A stretch of DNA of 64,000 nt from Anaerotruncus rubiinfantis (GTDB lineage: Bacteria > Bacillota > Clostridia > Oscillospirales > Ruminococcaceae). Where the stretch lies: positions 124,001 through 188,000 of the forward strand of contig NZ_FKLA01000008.1 of assembly GCF_900078395.1 (NCBI RefSeq), written 5' to 3'. Below, piece after piece: positions 2,754-10,545 of the stretch. Both the position numbers and the translations under genes were made by a program. The stretch's first letter is position 1; every line of letters starts with the position of its first letter. The notes under the pieces were generated by a model. That model was not told the DNA's origin. It worked only from the letters and a program-made list of their open reading frames with translations, and did no database searches.

Positions 2754-3383
2754 GTGATAAAAACGCTGGAACTAAATCAACTTTACAACATGGATTGCAT
2801 GGATGGGATGCGGGAATTCCCGGACAAATATTTTGAACTGGCGATTGTAGATCCGCCCTATAGAGATGAATCGGAGAATTGCCCCACAAAAGATATGCGG
2901 AAACACGGGACAATGAAAGCTTTCGGAAAAAAGCCAGACGCAAAATATTTTGATGAGTTGTTTCGCATAAGTCAAAATCAAATCATATGGGGCGCAAACA
3001 ATTTTAAATTACCAGAATACAAAGGATTCGTTGTCTGGAAAAAACAAACGATATCCGAGAAATTTACCATGTCGATGGCGGAAGTTGCCTACATATCGGA
3101 GGGGCTTGGAACGATATCTAAAGTGTTTGAGTATCCGCCGCAGGGCAAAAAAGACGATTGTAGAATCCATCCCACGCAAAAGCCGGTAGCGCTCTACGAG
3201 TGGCTATTATCCAAATACGCAAAACCCGGAGACAAGATCCTCGACACTCACGCAGGCAGCGCGTCCAGCCTGATTGCCTGCCACAACATGGGATTTGATT
3301 ATATCGGATTTGAGATCGACCGGGATTATTACGAAAAAGCGCTGGAGCGCCTGGAGGCGGTTAAAGCGCAAATTAGGTTTTAA
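2754..3383 (+). CDS. DNA methyltransferase, N6-adenine/N4-cytosine class
   Basis: Motif IV DPPY lies near residue 35 and is preceded by the MDCMDGMREFPD segment usual in this family. The SAM-binding motif comes late (PGDKILDTHAGSASSLIACHNMGFDYIGFEID), so the order is that of beta-class enzymes, with the HPTQKP motif just before it. At 209 residues this is a compact phage type. The first possible start is GTG 2754; the true start may be slightly downstream because GAGGTG overlaps it. No restriction partner is beside it, so it probably protects phage DNA or is regulatory. Confidence 0.85.
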   Translation: MIKTLELNQLYNMDCMDGMREFPDKYFELAIVDPPYRDESENCPTKDMRKHGTMKAFGKKPDAKYFDELFRISQNQIIWGANNFKLPEYKGFVVWKKQTISEKFTMSMAEVAYISEGLGTISKVFEYPPQGKKDDCRIHPTQKPVALYEWLLSKYAKPGDKILDTHAGSASSLIACHNMGFDYIGFEIDRDYYEKALERLEAVKAQIRF

Positions 3384-5873: not shown

Positions 5874-6042
5874 GAAAGTAGTAGATAAAAAGAAACTATT
5901 GACTGGCGACCTGGTGCAAGAAATTGAGAATATTGTCTTGCGGGGCAATGTGGCGGAGGTCAAAAGGCTCAAACATGAAGTCGTTGTGTTTGAGAGAATA
6001 TCAGAAAGAAAAATATCGGCTCCCGTAGAGTCTCGGGAGTAA
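5872..6042 (+). CDS. Small phage protein (KKLLTGDLVQEIE type)
   Basis: 56 residues, charged, with an LLTGDLVQEIENIVLRG opening similar to small conserved proteins in other Clostridia phages. The GGAGGG site is 12 bases from the ATG, a little far. The start codon overlaps the -10 of a promoter, so transcripts from that promoter could not express it. Function unknown. Confidence 0.45.
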   Translation: MKVVDKKKLLTGDLVQEIENIVLRGNVAEVKRLKHEVVVFERISERKISAPVESRE

Positions 6043-6050
6043 CAGCCAGA

Positions 6051-6093
6051 GTGGGCTATGAGCAGAAATGCTTGTAGTCCACTTTTTTATTTT
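6051..6093 (+). terminator. 14-bp GNRA-loop hairpin with T-tract
   Basis: GTGGGCTATGAGCA (6051-6064) pairs with TGCTTGTAGTCCAC (6069-6082) across a GAAA loop, with a few G-T pairs, followed by TTTTTTATTTT. A smaller hairpin (CTCCCG/CGGGAG, 6020-6039) precedes it. It can terminate RNA started at about 5880, making a roughly 210-nt transcript. Confidence 0.65.
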
Positions 6094-6097
6094 ACTT

Positions 6098-6313
6098 ATG
6101 AAAAATCTCGAAGAACTGAAAATCGAATATCTCAACCAATTAGAGCCCATCAGGAAGCGTCGGGAGGCTTTGCAAGCGGGCTTGAAAGGCACGAACGGGA
6201 AAGAACGAGACGAACTGGAAAAGCGCATTAAAGGGCTTTACCGCTCGGAACAGAGCCTGTTATACAGTCTGTCGCAGATCCAGGCGAGCATTGACGGAAA
6301 GACAAAGTGTTGA
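6098..6313 (+). CDS. Small helical phage protein, unknown
   Basis: 71 residues, Glu/Arg/Leu-rich with an LEELKIEYLNQLEPIRKRREAL start, likely coiled coil; it resembles the small DUF1492-like regulators only in style. The start has no good ribosome site because a terminator-like hairpin precedes it, so expression may be low or the start may differ. Confidence 0.4.
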   Translation: MKNLEELKIEYLNQLEPIRKRREALQAGLKGTNGKERDELEKRIKGLYRSEQSLLYSLSQIQASIDGKTKC

Positions 6314-6860
6314 TATGCCGCAAAGGGCGCACGAGCCTGACGCGGTACGAACAAAACCAGCCGTGAGGTTTCAAAAGGCGGGTGCCTGCATCGGCCTTGT
6401 TTTTAGGAGCGGCATTTAGACATAACCGTGTGGCGGAATAGGTAGACGCTATGGTGACGGGTAGAGTGGCACCTATAACCCTGAAGGCGGTTAGGGCTTA
6501 AGTGCTCACGCTTTTCAGGCCGCAGAAATGCGCGATGGGCGTAAGATGGCAAACCACTCATGCAGGGTGCAAATCCCTGCCACGGTACATTGTACCCGAT
6601 GAACCGTATGCTCCCAGCCAGTATGCGGGGGGGGGGCCACACAAGGTTGTGCGTGATCCTGTGCTGGAGTTAAAACGCACAACGCAATTGAGCGGTGCCC
6701 AGCGCCAGGCGGCTTGCTCAAAGAAAAGCCGCCAACACGAAAGCAAAGAATCGGCGGAACCTGTGCAATGTGCAGAAGCCGCGCCCATGTTTGATTCATG
6801 GGGCTTTCGCCATTTGTACAACCTCCTTTCACCCGCTGGCATACCGGGCAAAGTATGCCC
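6314..6860 (+). ncRNA. Large highly structured non-coding RNA candidate (ornate phage RNA, ROOL/GOLLD-like or new)
   Basis: No credible gene lies here, but pairing is dense. ATGCCGC (6315-6321) pairs with GCGGCAT (6409-6415) to close a branched 5' domain. A tRNA-like domain spans 6424-6587. The 3' domain has GTTGTGCGT/ACGCACAAC (6646-6654 with 6675-6683), GGCGGCTT/AAGCCGCC (6708-6715 with 6726-6733), CCCATG/CATGGG (6784-6789 with 6797-6802) and GGCATAC/GTATGCC (6838-6844 with 6853-6859). Length, prophage setting and Firmicutes host fit the large ornate RNAs ROOL and GOLLD, but I cannot match a consensus from memory. A run of ten G (6627-6636) lies inside. Confidence 0.6.
6424..6587 (+). ncRNA. 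tRNA-Leu-like fold with the anticodon arm replaced by a branched domain
   Basis: ACCGTG (6425-6430) pairs with CACGGT (6581-6586). Then come TG and a Leu-type D arm (6433-6449, GCG...CGC with loop GG). The T arm is 6562-6567 paired with 6575-6580 around loop TGCAAAT. Six plus six pairs give the usual 12-bp acceptor/T stack. Between D and T arms lie about 112 nt, closed by GAGTGG/CCACTC (6464-6469 with 6554-6559) and holding TAACC/GGTTA and a CGCA-GAAA-TGCG hairpin. No normal anticodon arm and no CCA. GGTAC/GTACC (6584-6596) could compete with the acceptor stem. Confidence 0.6.
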
Positions 6861-6863
6861 TAA

Positions 6864-6879
6864 CTCCTAAAATAAGGAG
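6864..6879 (+). promoter_or_regulatory. Small hairpin hiding the ribosome site of the 6888 gene
   Basis: CTCCT (6864-6868) can pair with AGGAG (6875-6879) across a six-base A-rich loop. AGGAG is the ribosome site of the gene starting at 6888, so its translation could be held back unless the structure opens. Confidence 0.35.
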
Positions 6880-6887
6880 CGGAAAAA

Positions 6888-7031
6888 ATGAAGCTCGGAA
6901 AGAGAATCAGGTTCGGTTGCACGGGAAAGCATCTGCACAAACAGGCCGACAAAAAGGAGAACAAGATTAAGACAAACCGATATCTTGACAGAATTATGGA
7001 CGCGGCCGAAAAATCGGAGAAAAACGCTTAA
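6888..7031 (+). CDS. Very small basic phage protein, 47 aa
   Basis: ATG at 6888 after AAGGAG with good spacing; 47 codons to TAA. The peptide starts MKLGKRIRFGCTGKHLHKQA and is rich in Lys and Arg, so it may bind nucleic acid. It follows the structured RNA directly and could work with it, which is only an inference from position. Confidence 0.45.
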   Translation: MKLGKRIRFGCTGKHLHKQADKKENKIKTNRYLDRIMDAAEKSEKNA

Positions 7032-7097
7032 TACCCGCATAGAAAGCCAGTTTAGGGGCGGCCGAAAAAATGCAAGATCTTAACCTCGAAAAAGGCG

Positions 7098-7307
7098 GTG
7101 GCAGTCATCGACCTAGAAACACTGGAACAAGAGCGGTTGCGTATCTTACGCGAGCGCATAGAGCTGCACGAACGGCTAATCCACAAGACCGGGAAGAAGC
7201 GCAGGGAGGCAAAAGCGGAGTTGGGGGATCTTAATGCACAGTATGAGGCGGTGTGCCGGGAGATAAATCAAAAAGAAAACGCCCTCGAATCAATCGAAAG
7301 CGTTTAA
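7098..7307 (+). CDS. Small coiled-coil phage protein, 69 aa
   Basis: Starts at GTG 7098; the upstream AAAGGCGG is a weak ribosome site. The sequence is heptad-like with many Glu, Arg and Leu (RLRILRERIELHERLI), then EAKAELGDLNAQYEAVCREI. It is the last rightward gene before the reverse-strand cassette. Function unknown. Confidence 0.5.
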   Translation: MAVIDLETLEQERLRILRERIELHERLIHKTGKKRREAKAELGDLNAQYEAVCREINQKENALESIESV

Positions 7308-8600: not shown

Positions 8601-9068
8601 GTGGGAGAAAAAAAGAATAGCGCGAAATCACCGCGCGGAAGAGCGCCGAGATTTTCAGAGCCAGAAGAAATGCAAAGGCTCATAGACGCATATTTCAAGG
8701 ACTGCGAAGGATACCCATTGACATTGCCGGACGAAAGTGGGGGAGAAAGACCAGTTTTAAATAAATACGGGAAGCCGGTAATTATAGGCGCACATCCTCC
8801 GACGGTAACGGGTTTAGCGCTTGCCTTGGGATTTATGAGCCGTCAAGCGCTGTTAAACTATCAGACGAGAGATAAATGTTTTAATGACACGATCACGCGC
8901 GCGAAGTCCAGAGTTGAGGAATACGCGGAATCGAGACTGTACGACAAAGACGGAGCGAACGGGGCAAAATTCAGCCTCGCAAACAACTTCAAGGGCTGGA
9001 AGGAAAAGCCGGACGGCGCGGAGGTTAGCCAAACTACCAGTATCAAGATAAGATTGACCGATGATTGA
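8601..9068 (+). CDS. terS: Terminase small subunit
   Basis: 155 residues. The N-terminal basic stretch is followed by FSEPEEMQRLIDAYFKDC and a helix-turn-helix-like PTVTGLALALGFMSRQALLNYQ, then a helical segment and KFSLANNFKGWKEK, as in DNA-binding small terminases of Firmicutes phages. Starts at GTG after AAAGGGG. It overlaps terL by 8 bases. It recognises phage DNA and hands it to the large subunit. Confidence 0.85.
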   Translation: MGEKKNSAKSPRGRAPRFSEPEEMQRLIDAYFKDCEGYPLTLPDESGGERPVLNKYGKPVIIGAHPPTVTGLALALGFMSRQALLNYQTRDKCFNDTITRAKSRVEEYAESRLYDKDGANGAKFSLANNFKGWKEKPDGAEVSQTTSIKIRLTDD

Positions 9069-10545
9069 TATTCAAATTTCCAGAAAAGTCTTTAATCCCG
9101 CTTTCCTGCCATATTTGGAAGATCAGCACCGTTACATGGTGTTCTATGGTGGAGCTGGATCGGGGAAAAGTTACTTTATCGCAGAGCGTTACATATACCA
9201 TATCCTCAAAGATAAGCTGCTGAATCTATTAGTGGTACGCGCGGTAGGGCGTACAAACCGAGATTCAACCTTCGCCTTATTTAAGCAGGTAATCGCCAGA
9301 TGGGGGCTTTCCGAATACTTCAAGGCCAATGAGAGCGATATGCGAATTACCTGCATTCTGAATCAAAATTCAGTTTTGTTTAAAGGACTGGACGATACTG
9401 AAAAACTGAAATCCATCACCTTTGCCAAAGGAGAATTGACGGATATCTGGATCGAAGAGGCAAGTGAGACCCTGGAAGCGGATTTCAACCAATTGGATGT
9501 GCGCTTGCGCGGCAAGGGAACGCAAAAACAGATCGTTATCTCCTTCAATCCTGTGGATGTAAACCACTGGCTGAAAAAGCGGTTTTTTGACCGTAAGGAC
9601 GACCGGGTAACTGTTTTGCACACCACCTACAAAGACAATGCTTTTTTGGATGAGGACTATAAAAAGCTCCTGGAAAGCTATAAGGAAACCGATCCGTATT
9701 ACTACGATGTTTACTGTCTGGGACAATGGGGTGTGCTGGGAAGCACAATTTTTGACGCGCAAAAGGTCAACAGAAGATTGGCGGAGATCCGTGGCCTGCG
9801 GCCCAAAGCGACCGGATATTTTGAATACCGCTATGACGGTATAAAGATTACAGAGATCCAATGGGTGGACAGTCCGGACGGATGCATCAAGATTTATGAG
9901 CCGCCAAGAGAGGGTGCGCCCTATGTAATCGGCGGAGACACCGCAGGCGAAGGATCAGACCGATTTATCGGGCAGGTGCTTGACAATACGGATGGGAGAC
10001 AGGCGGCGGTACTGTCTCACCAGTTTGACGAGGATGTTTACGCGCGGCAGATCTATTGCCTCGGGGTTTATTACAACACCGCGCTCGTTGGCATTGAAAC
10101 GAACTTTTCCACATTCCCGGTCAAAGAATTGGAGCGGCTGCAATATCCAAAACAGTATGTGCGGCAGACCGAGGACAACTACACCCACAAGCCGAAAGAC
10201 GCTTATGGATTCAAGACCACTTCTACCACCCGCCCGGTCATTATAGCTGGTTTGGTTCAGGTGGTGCGGGAATCGATAGAGTTGATGAACGACCCGGACA
10301 CACTGGGCGAGATGTTGACCTTTGTGCGTAACGAAAAGGGCAGACCGGAGGCCCAGCAGGGAGCGCACGACGATCACATTATGGCGTTGGCGATTGCGCA
10401 TTATATCAGGCCGCAGCAGGACTATACAGAACGTGAGCAAATAAAGGGCAGGGTCAAATGGACACCCGACCAGTGGGAGGACTACCAGGGGGCGAGCGAA
10501 GCGGGACGCGCCTACCTGATCGAGAAATGGGGGAATCCGTTTTGA
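9061..10545 (+). CDS. terL: Terminase large subunit, PBSX-type
   Basis: 494 residues. ATPase domain with Walker A GGAGSGKS (residues 30-37) and Walker B-like LTDIWIEEAS (about 126-135). The nuclease domain has IGGDTAGEGSD near residue 290 and a HDDHIMALAIAHY segment near the end, giving the acidic RNase H-like active site. It pumps DNA into the procapsid and cuts it. Family resemblance is to the PBSX/XtmB group. Confidence 0.95.
   Translation: MIDIQISRKVFNPAFLPYLEDQHRYMVFYGGAGSGKSYFIAERYIYHILKDKLLNLLVVRAVGRTNRDSTFALFKQVIARWGLSEYFKANESDMRITCILNQNSVLFKGLDDTEKLKSITFAKGELTDIWIEEASETLEADFNQLDVRLRGKGTQKQIVISFNPVDVNHWLKKRFFDRKDDRVTVLHTTYKDNAFLDEDYKKLLESYKETDPYYYDVYCLGQWGVLGSTIFDAQKVNRRLAEIRGLRPKATGYFEYRYDGIKITEIQWVDSPDGCIKIYEPPREGAPYVIGGDTAGEGSDRFIGQVLDNTDGRQAAVLSHQFDEDVYARQIYCLGVYYNTALVGIETNFSTFPVKELERLQYPKQYVRQTEDNYTHKPKDAYGFKTTSTTRPVIIAGLVQVVRESIELMNDPDTLGEMLTFVRNEKGRPEAQQGAHDDHIMALAIAHYIRPQQDYTEREQIKGRVKWTPDQWEDYQGASEAGRAYLIEKWGNPF

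Follow-up and report, generated by a model that had tools for sequence, protein, structure and literature searches.

The 164-nt unit at positions 6424-6587 (+ strand) of the window, which is the whole 64,000-nt stretch of DNA analyzed here, is with a probability of about 0.7 one of a family of phage RNAs that combine a constant tRNA-Leu-like frame with a structured central domain open to exchange, that is, a natural tRNA scaffold. The carriers comprise hundreds of viral contigs and, above all, phages of Firmicutes, including the Bacillus subtilis phage phi3T, and in the named phages looked at the RNA lies mostly in unannotated DNA. A description of this large family could not be found in the open-licence PMC literature, as judged by titles and the starts of abstracts. 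A sequence-only reading of the same DNA had suggested a new class of RNA with a tRNA part, and for the module this suggestion is supported by its wide distribution, its strong covariation and the lack of an Rfam match where tested.

The module and its surroundings in the window

The window is part of a phage genome that encodes a DnaB-like helicase (886-2163), a DNA methyltransferase (2754-3383) and the small (8601-9068) and large (9061-10545) terminase subunits, and the same phage is present in one viral record with 100% identity over 751 nt. The tRNA-Leu-like module sits exactly where it had been read, at 6424-6587, as indicated by a match of 58.7 bits (E 1.7e-13) to model R1, which was trained on 75 relatives that do not include the window's own copy; neither ARAGORN nor Rfam makes a call on it. 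The 5' strand of the acceptor stem, AACCGTG (6424-6430), faces the 3' strand at 6581-6587, which is assigned by covariation and the R1 match. Residues 6425-6430 pair with 6581-6586 in a helix that covaries in the family, and the outermost A-A is unpaired. Together with the 6-bp stem of the T arm (6562-6580; loop TGCAAAT with G at position 55), in which four variable pairs covary, this helix forms the claimed 12-bp acceptor/T stack as 6 + 6 pairs. U8-G9 and the D arm, TGGCGGAATAGGTAGACGC, occupy 6431-6449, with the stem at 6433-6435/6447-6449 and the GG of the D loop, also correctly read, at 6441-6442. This D arm is identical to that of some tRNA-Leu genes, such as an annotated cyanophage tRNA-Leu, and the R1 alignment of the window pairs its D stem with a later CGC. 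The anticodon arm is indeed replaced: an exchangeable central domain at 6450-6559, of a type common to other loci, takes the place of the anticodon and variable arms. The domain is closed by helix P3 (GAGTGG at 6464-6469 with CCACTC at 6554-6559) and may contain an internal helix, P4 (6480-6485 with 6514-6519), and an AU linker, the U48 equivalent, stands at 6560-6561 before the T arm.

The folding energy of the tRNA-like part alone is not exceptional relative to shuffles (z -1.20; 20 of 200 as good), nor is that of 6314-6423 (z -1.73; 12 of 200 as good). The whole 557-nt stretch has a modest folding advantage over shuffles (z -2.11; 3 of 100 as good), and 6588-6870 (+ strand) is a separate, strongly folding stretch (z -3.05; 0 of 200) that is possibly a second RNA. 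This stretch contains a run of ten G and both of the perfect stems that had been pointed out, one of 9 bp (6646-6654/6675-6683) and one of 8 bp (6708-6715/6726-6733); 2.3% of 300 shuffles attain two such stems, as do 3 of 226 pieces of equal size taken from the window. Only a weak match to named phages (78.6% over 51 nt) was obtained with 6588-6870, and only a 30-nt match, to locus L364, among the collected family loci besides the same phage. Because the conserved unit is the 164-nt module, the only part shared by the relatives, and the downstream part has no detected relatives, the single ornate RNA of about 550 nt that had been proposed is not supported. Membership in ROOL or GOLLD, the other proposal, finds no support either: Rfam 15 yields no family at the gathering score in the window, and the six matches obtained in 6000-7100 at E up to 10 are all far under the cut-offs and do not include ROOL or GOLLD. 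The hairpin at 6584-6596, which had been regarded as a possible switch competing with the acceptor stem, does not appear to be conserved, in that a like hairpin is present in 3 of 338 family RNAs versus 2 with shuffled downstream sequence.

There is precedent for a second RNA beside the module, since DUF3800-VIII and mcrA RNAs lie near relatives. In two Listeria phages, an mcrA RNA (RF03010) lies 91 nt downstream of the tRNA-like RNA (L453 1475-1525 and L454 1384-1434). A stretch of about 1.7 kb without annotated genes in a phi3T hybrid, between a yonN-like gene and yonK (L452 2456-4180), looks like an RNA island; it contains the tRNA-like RNA and a DUF3800-VIII RNA, and another phi3T record annotates hypothetical proteins there. 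Both of these Rfam RNAs presumably stem from a survey of 224 candidate structured RNAs. A structured RNA as a general feature downstream of the family was considered and rejected: the mean z is -0.77 for the 200 nt downstream, -0.91 upstream and -0.35 at random places, and z is below -2 in 17, 22 and 16 of 100 cases, respectively. Small hairpins at 6837-6860 of the window and at 4952-4981 of L364 resemble each other, with compensating changes in the stem (the stretch of the window compared with L364 is 6830-6859), and this similarity may be due to chance; the hairpin is downstream of the tRNA-like RNA in the window and upstream of it in L364.

Family members and the paired frame

In a blastn search of named phages with a 751-nt query, 22-25 nt of the D arm were matched in several Lactobacillales and cyanobacterial phages, mostly within unannotated DNA, and two Serratia phages matched weakly at another part of the query. 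A comparison of six matched loci reveals a common build, consisting of the acceptor, GTGGCGGAATAGGTAGACGC, a centre that differs in length and sequence, GGTGCAAATCC and the acceptor again. Exact pattern scans of IMG/VR for the D arm, a gap and the T arm gave 80 matches with gaps of 20-50, at least 120 with gaps of 51-81 and at least 120 with gaps of 82-112. Scanning one genome per species yielded 58 contigs, of which 51 are from Firmicutes by record title (Lactobacillaceae, Leuconostoc, Paenibacillus, relatives of Bacillus, Listeria, Clostridia and others); the remaining seven are metagenome bins labelled as other phyla. The D-arm match in cyanophage S-CBP1 (26.8 bits) was not counted as a member, and the other cyanophage D-arm matches were excluded whether annotated as tRNA-Leu or not. 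Across all loci, the 388 matches located away from contig ends represent 338 distinct RNAs, a set that the window copy enters through its twin, L001.

The constant frame of these RNAs consists of a 7-bp acceptor stem, U8, a D arm of the tRNA-Leu type, the AU linker and a T arm with a 6-bp stem and the loop UGCAAAU (G55). Of the acceptor pairs, the six inner ones are present in 321-334 of the 338 RNAs and the outermost one in 294; G-C is almost invariable at the innermost pair, and the other acceptor pairs take all four Watson-Crick types. Outward of the acceptor, the next two positions are paired in 194 and 189 of the 338. The four variable T-stem pairs form in 324-337 RNAs, and when the two fixed T-stem G-C pairs are included, all 12 inner pairs are present in 283 of the 338 and the 13th as well in 256. 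The corresponding stack of an ordinary tRNA has 12 pairs, arranged 7 + 5. Position U8, which lay outside the search pattern, is T in all 338 sequences, and the AU linker has U directly before the T stem in 336 and A in 310, with the 58 genome loci among the 338 having been chosen for ATG at this place.

The covariation analysis that had been called for reveals a strong signal in the acceptor and T stems of the module, and this signal is repeated in a second set of 48 members. In 75 diverse members found by the pattern, 97.6% of the cells in these stems are paired, as compared with 35.7-45.0% in slid controls. Double changes are observed in 299 cells versus a shuffle mean of 87, and the covariation score is 0.656 versus 0.161, with none of these three values (paired share, double changes and score) attained in 500 shuffles; the number of pairs with any double change is 11 versus 9.3, which 25 of 500 shuffles reach.

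The D arm and T loop are fixed by the search pattern in the 338 RNAs, so their invariance there is uninformative, and R1 was therefore built and run on genomes and named phages. At E up to 1e-7, matches were obtained in 29 of 251 Lactobacillaceae genomes and in 12 of 299 genomes belonging to the same phylum as a Lachnospiraceae genome. Eight of the latter 12 are tRNA-Leu-like sequences of 81-87 nt with 42.5-46.2 bits and a TTC T loop (L427-L434), and the other four are family-like RNAs, two of which are long-centre variants with a canonical T loop (L424 and L426). Three long-centre relatives with the canonical TTC loop (L393, L424 and L426) possibly bridge tRNA-Leu and the family. In the alignment of 48 RNAs found by R1 (A4, from which L389, L391, L392, L394, L426-L434 and L457 were left out), which is fitted to R1 and so leans towards the model, 98.0% of the cells are paired, with 222 double-change cells versus 61 and a score of 0.750 versus 0.171. 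Pairs with a double change number 12 versus 9.6 (1 of 500 shuffles), and further pair types 42 versus 37.3 (9 of 500 shuffles). All three D-stem pairs show double changes in this set; the 19-nt string from U8 through the D arm, TGGCGGAATAGGTAGACGC, is exact in 24 of the 48 members, and the D stem covaries in others. Position 55 of the T loop is G in 46 and U in 2 of the 48; R1 was trained on pattern-found RNAs and so favours them, and a loop with U55 would not have been hidden, because R1 also reports canonical tRNAs.

The central domain and its exchange

The centres are 27-116 nt long, within the limits of the search pattern. A closing helix of at least 5 bp is located near the 3' end of the centre in 61% of 331 inserts versus 35% of shuffled ones, and it abuts the AU linker in 140 of 203 inserts versus 376 of 1152 shuffled. 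A pseudoknot between the strand before the closing helix and the enclosed loop is found in 34% versus 21% of shuffled inserts at a higher cut-off (177 cases). Taken singly, the inserts have no marked folding advantage over shuffles (mean z -0.52 for 100 RNAs), and clustering at 66% identity divides the inserts into 224 clusters, 175 of which are singletons.

Nine IMG/VR stretches, including that of the window's own phage, hold the centre type of the window; they were found by a pattern that included the 5' part of the centre. The type is common to L257, L323, L468, L470, L471 and L465. A block like GATGGGCGTTAGATGGCAA near the 3' end of the centre, outside the search pattern, is shared with few changes. 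The alignment for this type uses 7 of 10 rows, without L466, which comes from the window's phage, and L467 and L469, which repeat L257 and L468, respectively. P3 is paired in all seven, with double changes at four of its six pairs, and the two possible inner helices, P4 and one other, pair in 54.8% and 60.0% of cells as aligned; for the whole structure, 35 double-change cells are observed versus 13.5 in shuffles (0 of 500 as high). In L465 (400-590), the window's centre type and the T arm are present without a recognisable 5' part of acceptor and D arm, as in a decayed or recombined copy. In a second centre type, represented by 16 sequences, two helices and a possible 4-bp pseudoknot are 97-98% paired; the helices covary, and in the pseudoknot changes are confined to one side and two cells are broken. 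Judged by such sequence comparisons, the central domains are structured. Complementarity of the centres to the surrounding phage DNA is at chance (longest shared words of 9.71 nt on average versus 9.66 nt for shuffled inserts), and local antisense action is therefore not supported.

A comparison of closely related phages reveals that the centre is exchanged while the frame around it is kept. L007 and L245 have the same flanks and acceptor in the stretch compared and differ in sequence between the D arm and the T arm; the same swap is observed in L032/L266 and L060/L157, and in L214/L269 with more differences in the flanks. Conversely, a 60-nt centre is identical in L007 and L088, which differ in acceptors and flanks, and among 205 RNA pairs whose centres are at least 70% identical, 110 have unrelated flanks. 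Where both 100-nt flanks are identical to 80% or more (44 pairs), the centres are below 60% identity in 22, at 60-80% in 4 and at or above 80% in 18, where random insert pairs have a mean identity of 50% and 95% of them fall below 61%. With 300-nt flanks above 75%, 21 pairs remain, with centres at or below 55% in 12, at or above 93% in 7 and between these values in 2; the pairs in these counts are not independent of each other. Between yonN and yonK, the centre of phi3T differs from that of BUCT082, BUCT083 and SPbetaL7, which have the same acceptor. The central domain thus behaves, by alignment, as a cassette that is swapped wholesale between otherwise near-identical phages. No match was obtained in SPBc2 and Goe12 at the place where phi3T has the RNA, nor in 16 other loci with a related terminase, several of which are fragments that possibly do not reach the place; these absences indicate that the RNA is dispensable.

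The exchange of the centre with intact arms, the patchy presence and the changing location are suggestive of a determinant of specificity that is subject to diversifying selection. A non-coding RNA with a constant and a variable part and with cassette exchange is unusual, and this build points to a target under such selection. The centre may determine specificity or act as the effector, and an arms race, most likely with host defence or rival phages, may have shaped it, a possibility that falls clearly short of an even chance; exchange, patchiness and location make a role in conflict our best guess. Slightly more tentative still is the broader proposal that phages own a modular RNA system of constant frame and interchangeable specificity domains, which would be traded like immune-receptor alleles and used against host defences or rivals, with the host tRNA machinery serving as maker and carrier.

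The elbow itself might instead act as a decoy that titrates or blocks a tRNA-handling protein, such as a defence nuclease, a modification enzyme or LeuRS, with a centre that varies because it is free of constraint or escapes recognition. Strong conservation of the D arm and T loop extends to the 48 members found by R1, and extra canonical T-arm hairpins are present within 10 of 324 centres versus a shuffle mean of 0.3; covarying helices in the centres and identical centres in unrelated phages, however, are unexpected for an unconstrained spacer, and the decoy is considered unlikely.

Genomic setting, probable end maturation and known systems

As determined with mechanical ORFs, the next ORF is on the same strand as the RNA in 243 of 315 cases downstream and in 245 of 311 upstream. 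Among 120 of the 280 upstream neighbours compared with PHROGs, a transcriptional regulator (26), a transcriptional activator (22) and an Alt-like activator (12) are among the families found, which may overlap one another. Among 118 of the 289 downstream neighbours (120 minus two duplicates), the most frequent terminase small subunit family is matched by 7 and several HNH families by 7 each. The annotated order in Sha1 is RinA, the RNA, HNH and the terminase small subunit. A conserved partner gene was not seen among the neighbours scanned, and a tie to terminase was rejected in view of the 16 loci without a match. Terminator-like sites within 150 nt are present downstream of 53 of 268 RNAs, as compared with 29 upstream, 16 downstream when the opposite strand is read and 9 at random places. 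Hexamers resembling TATAAT are weakly enriched 10-19 nt upstream (41 versus 25 on the reverse strand), and an own promoter was rejected, as full -35/-10 pairs show no peak upstream of the same 268 RNAs.

An ARAGORN call lies within 600 nt of 77 of the 338 RNAs, and the copies in Lenus, phiSHEF16 and EfV12-phi1 stand among tRNA genes. In L386 a true tRNA begins 4 nt past the RNA, in phiSHEF16 a tmRNA ends 2 nt ahead of it, and in EfV12-phi1 a tmRNA lies about 800 nt upstream. Copies are at most 600 nt apart at seven loci, with spacers of 2 nt (L179), 6 nt (L136, L284 and L380, which share one kind of array), 19 nt (L212), 114 nt and 460 nt; R1 finds three copies each in L284 (2363-2778) and L136 (11363-11737). 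Some centres in the L284 and L136 arrays hold extra T-arm-like hairpins.

The short spacers of 2-6 nt and the direct adjacency to true tRNAs suggest end processing of the tRNA type. Position 55 of an ordinary tRNA is a modified U, and the G55 of the family, together with the 12-13-bp acceptor/T stack, in which the T stem accounts for 6 bp, and the lack of an anticodon, would keep the RNA out of translation. Maturation like that of a tRNA is the simplest reading, because the spacers are so short and the elbow, which is recognised by RNase P and RNase Z (PMC4810234), is retained. Host RNase P would cut the 5' end and RNase Z or exonucleases the 3' end, freeing the RNA from the transcript, and the tRNA fold would then protect the excised RNA. 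The tandem arrays with these short spacers make recruitment of RNase P by the module, which had been raised before, plausible.

A DNA element in place of an RNA, whether a site of recombination or attachment that folds in single-stranded form or an anchor of homology at which cassettes are exchanged, would account for the conserved arms that bound the exchange in the pairs compared. The acceptor and variable T-stem pairs, however, contain 152 G-U versus 35 A-C, and this large excess marks the + strand as RNA; the orientation of the downstream ORFs, the nearby tRNAs and the 2-6-nt spacers also argue against such an element, which is regarded as very improbable.

The family RNA has the acceptor, D and T arms of a tRNA with the elbow nucleotides, yet G55 replaces U55 in all but two of the 48 model-found members, and a recognisable anticodon arm and a CCA end or conserved discriminator are lacking: position 73 is A in 181, T in 95, C in 33 and G in 29 of the 338 RNAs, and CCA follows in 2. 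ARAGORN finds neither a tRNA nor a tmRNA in the 64-kb window, and its calls overlap none of the 338 RNAs. Its intron modes call none of 150 sampled RNAs, and one mode makes a single call when the inserts of the 150 are shuffled; an intron-containing tRNA-Leu, in which removal of the intron would restore the anticodon arm, is not supported in this sample. In an Rfam scan of 20 loci the family RNA was matched in none, though true tRNAs nearby were matched. No tmRNA call on the family was made by Rfam or ARAGORN, and no tag frame was found. On the + strand, a frame runs open through the RNA in 53 of the 338 and is absent in the other 285; at least one such frame is open on the minus strand in 204. 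A mechanical ORF of at least 60 aa on either strand overlaps 142 RNAs, and the insert lengths are spread across the three remainders (99, 116 and 123), which indicates no reading frame.

These properties bear on a further alternative, in which the RNA is charged by LeuRS for a non-translational purpose or acts like tmRNA. LeuRS does not need the anticodon, and the A15-U48 combination, a tRNA-Leu feature, fits this alternative, as does the D arm of the tRNA-Leu type. LeuRS is also in contact with the elbow (PMC4810234). The low frequencies of A73 and CCA, however, make LeuRS recruitment doubtful, and with it the synthetase recruitment that had been suggested; in addition, most of the RNAs have no open + strand frame, and the probability of a leucylated RNA is very small. 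A packaging RNA for terminase in the sense of the phi29 pRNA, a phage packaging RNA, would suit the frequent location between a late activator and terminase or HNH genes, but copies among tRNA genes (Lenus, phiSHEF16 and EfV12-phi1) and in the yonN-yonK region of phi3T, and the related-terminase loci without a match, render it extremely improbable.

The natural scaffold, the preferred reading, can be compared with several known systems. In tmRNA (RF00023), the anticodon arm of a tRNA frame of the tRNA-Ala type is likewise replaced by another domain, and tmRNA is found near the family RNA in phiSHEF16 and EfV12-phi1; the family RNA, however, is far smaller, has a tRNA-Leu rather than a tRNA-Ala frame and has no tag frame. 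The rnaC (species 1) and rnaD (species 2) of T4 are also stable phage RNAs beside tRNA genes, but the acceptor or D arm of the family is not recognised there, and identity was rejected, as the only R1 matches in the 7-kb T4 region are to tRNA-Ser and to a piece of the T arm of tRNA-Pro. A T-arm-like hairpin with the loop TTCGAAT is present at the end of rnaC (L384 2909-3047). cabRNA was also considered as an identity and rejected.

ROOL and GOLLD are described as phage RNAs of unknown function, often near tRNA islands, but many GOLLD members exceed 800 nt and both RNAs form cages (PMC12286853), whereas the family RNA has no Rfam match. The vrRNAs of VIPR are phage RNAs with hypervariable parts that act in inter-phage conflict; they differ in their GGY/NN repeats and partner protein, identity was rejected, and the word tRNA does not occur in the main text of that report (PMC13142463). 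Some long non-coding RNAs are reported to recruit RNase P through tRNA mimicry for end maturation (PMC4810234); these are different RNAs, for which no exchangeable centre is known. With phi3T among the carriers, phage RNA-based interference becomes directly testable in B. subtilis, and natural tRNA-scaffolded RNAs are on offer. The same build is that of engineered tRNA scaffolds, which keep the acceptor, D and T arms and use the anticodon arm as the insertion site (PMC3753655); these are man-made from true tRNA, whereas the phage RNA is distinguished by G55, a T stem of 6 bp, a conserved D arm of its own and cassette exchange in nature.
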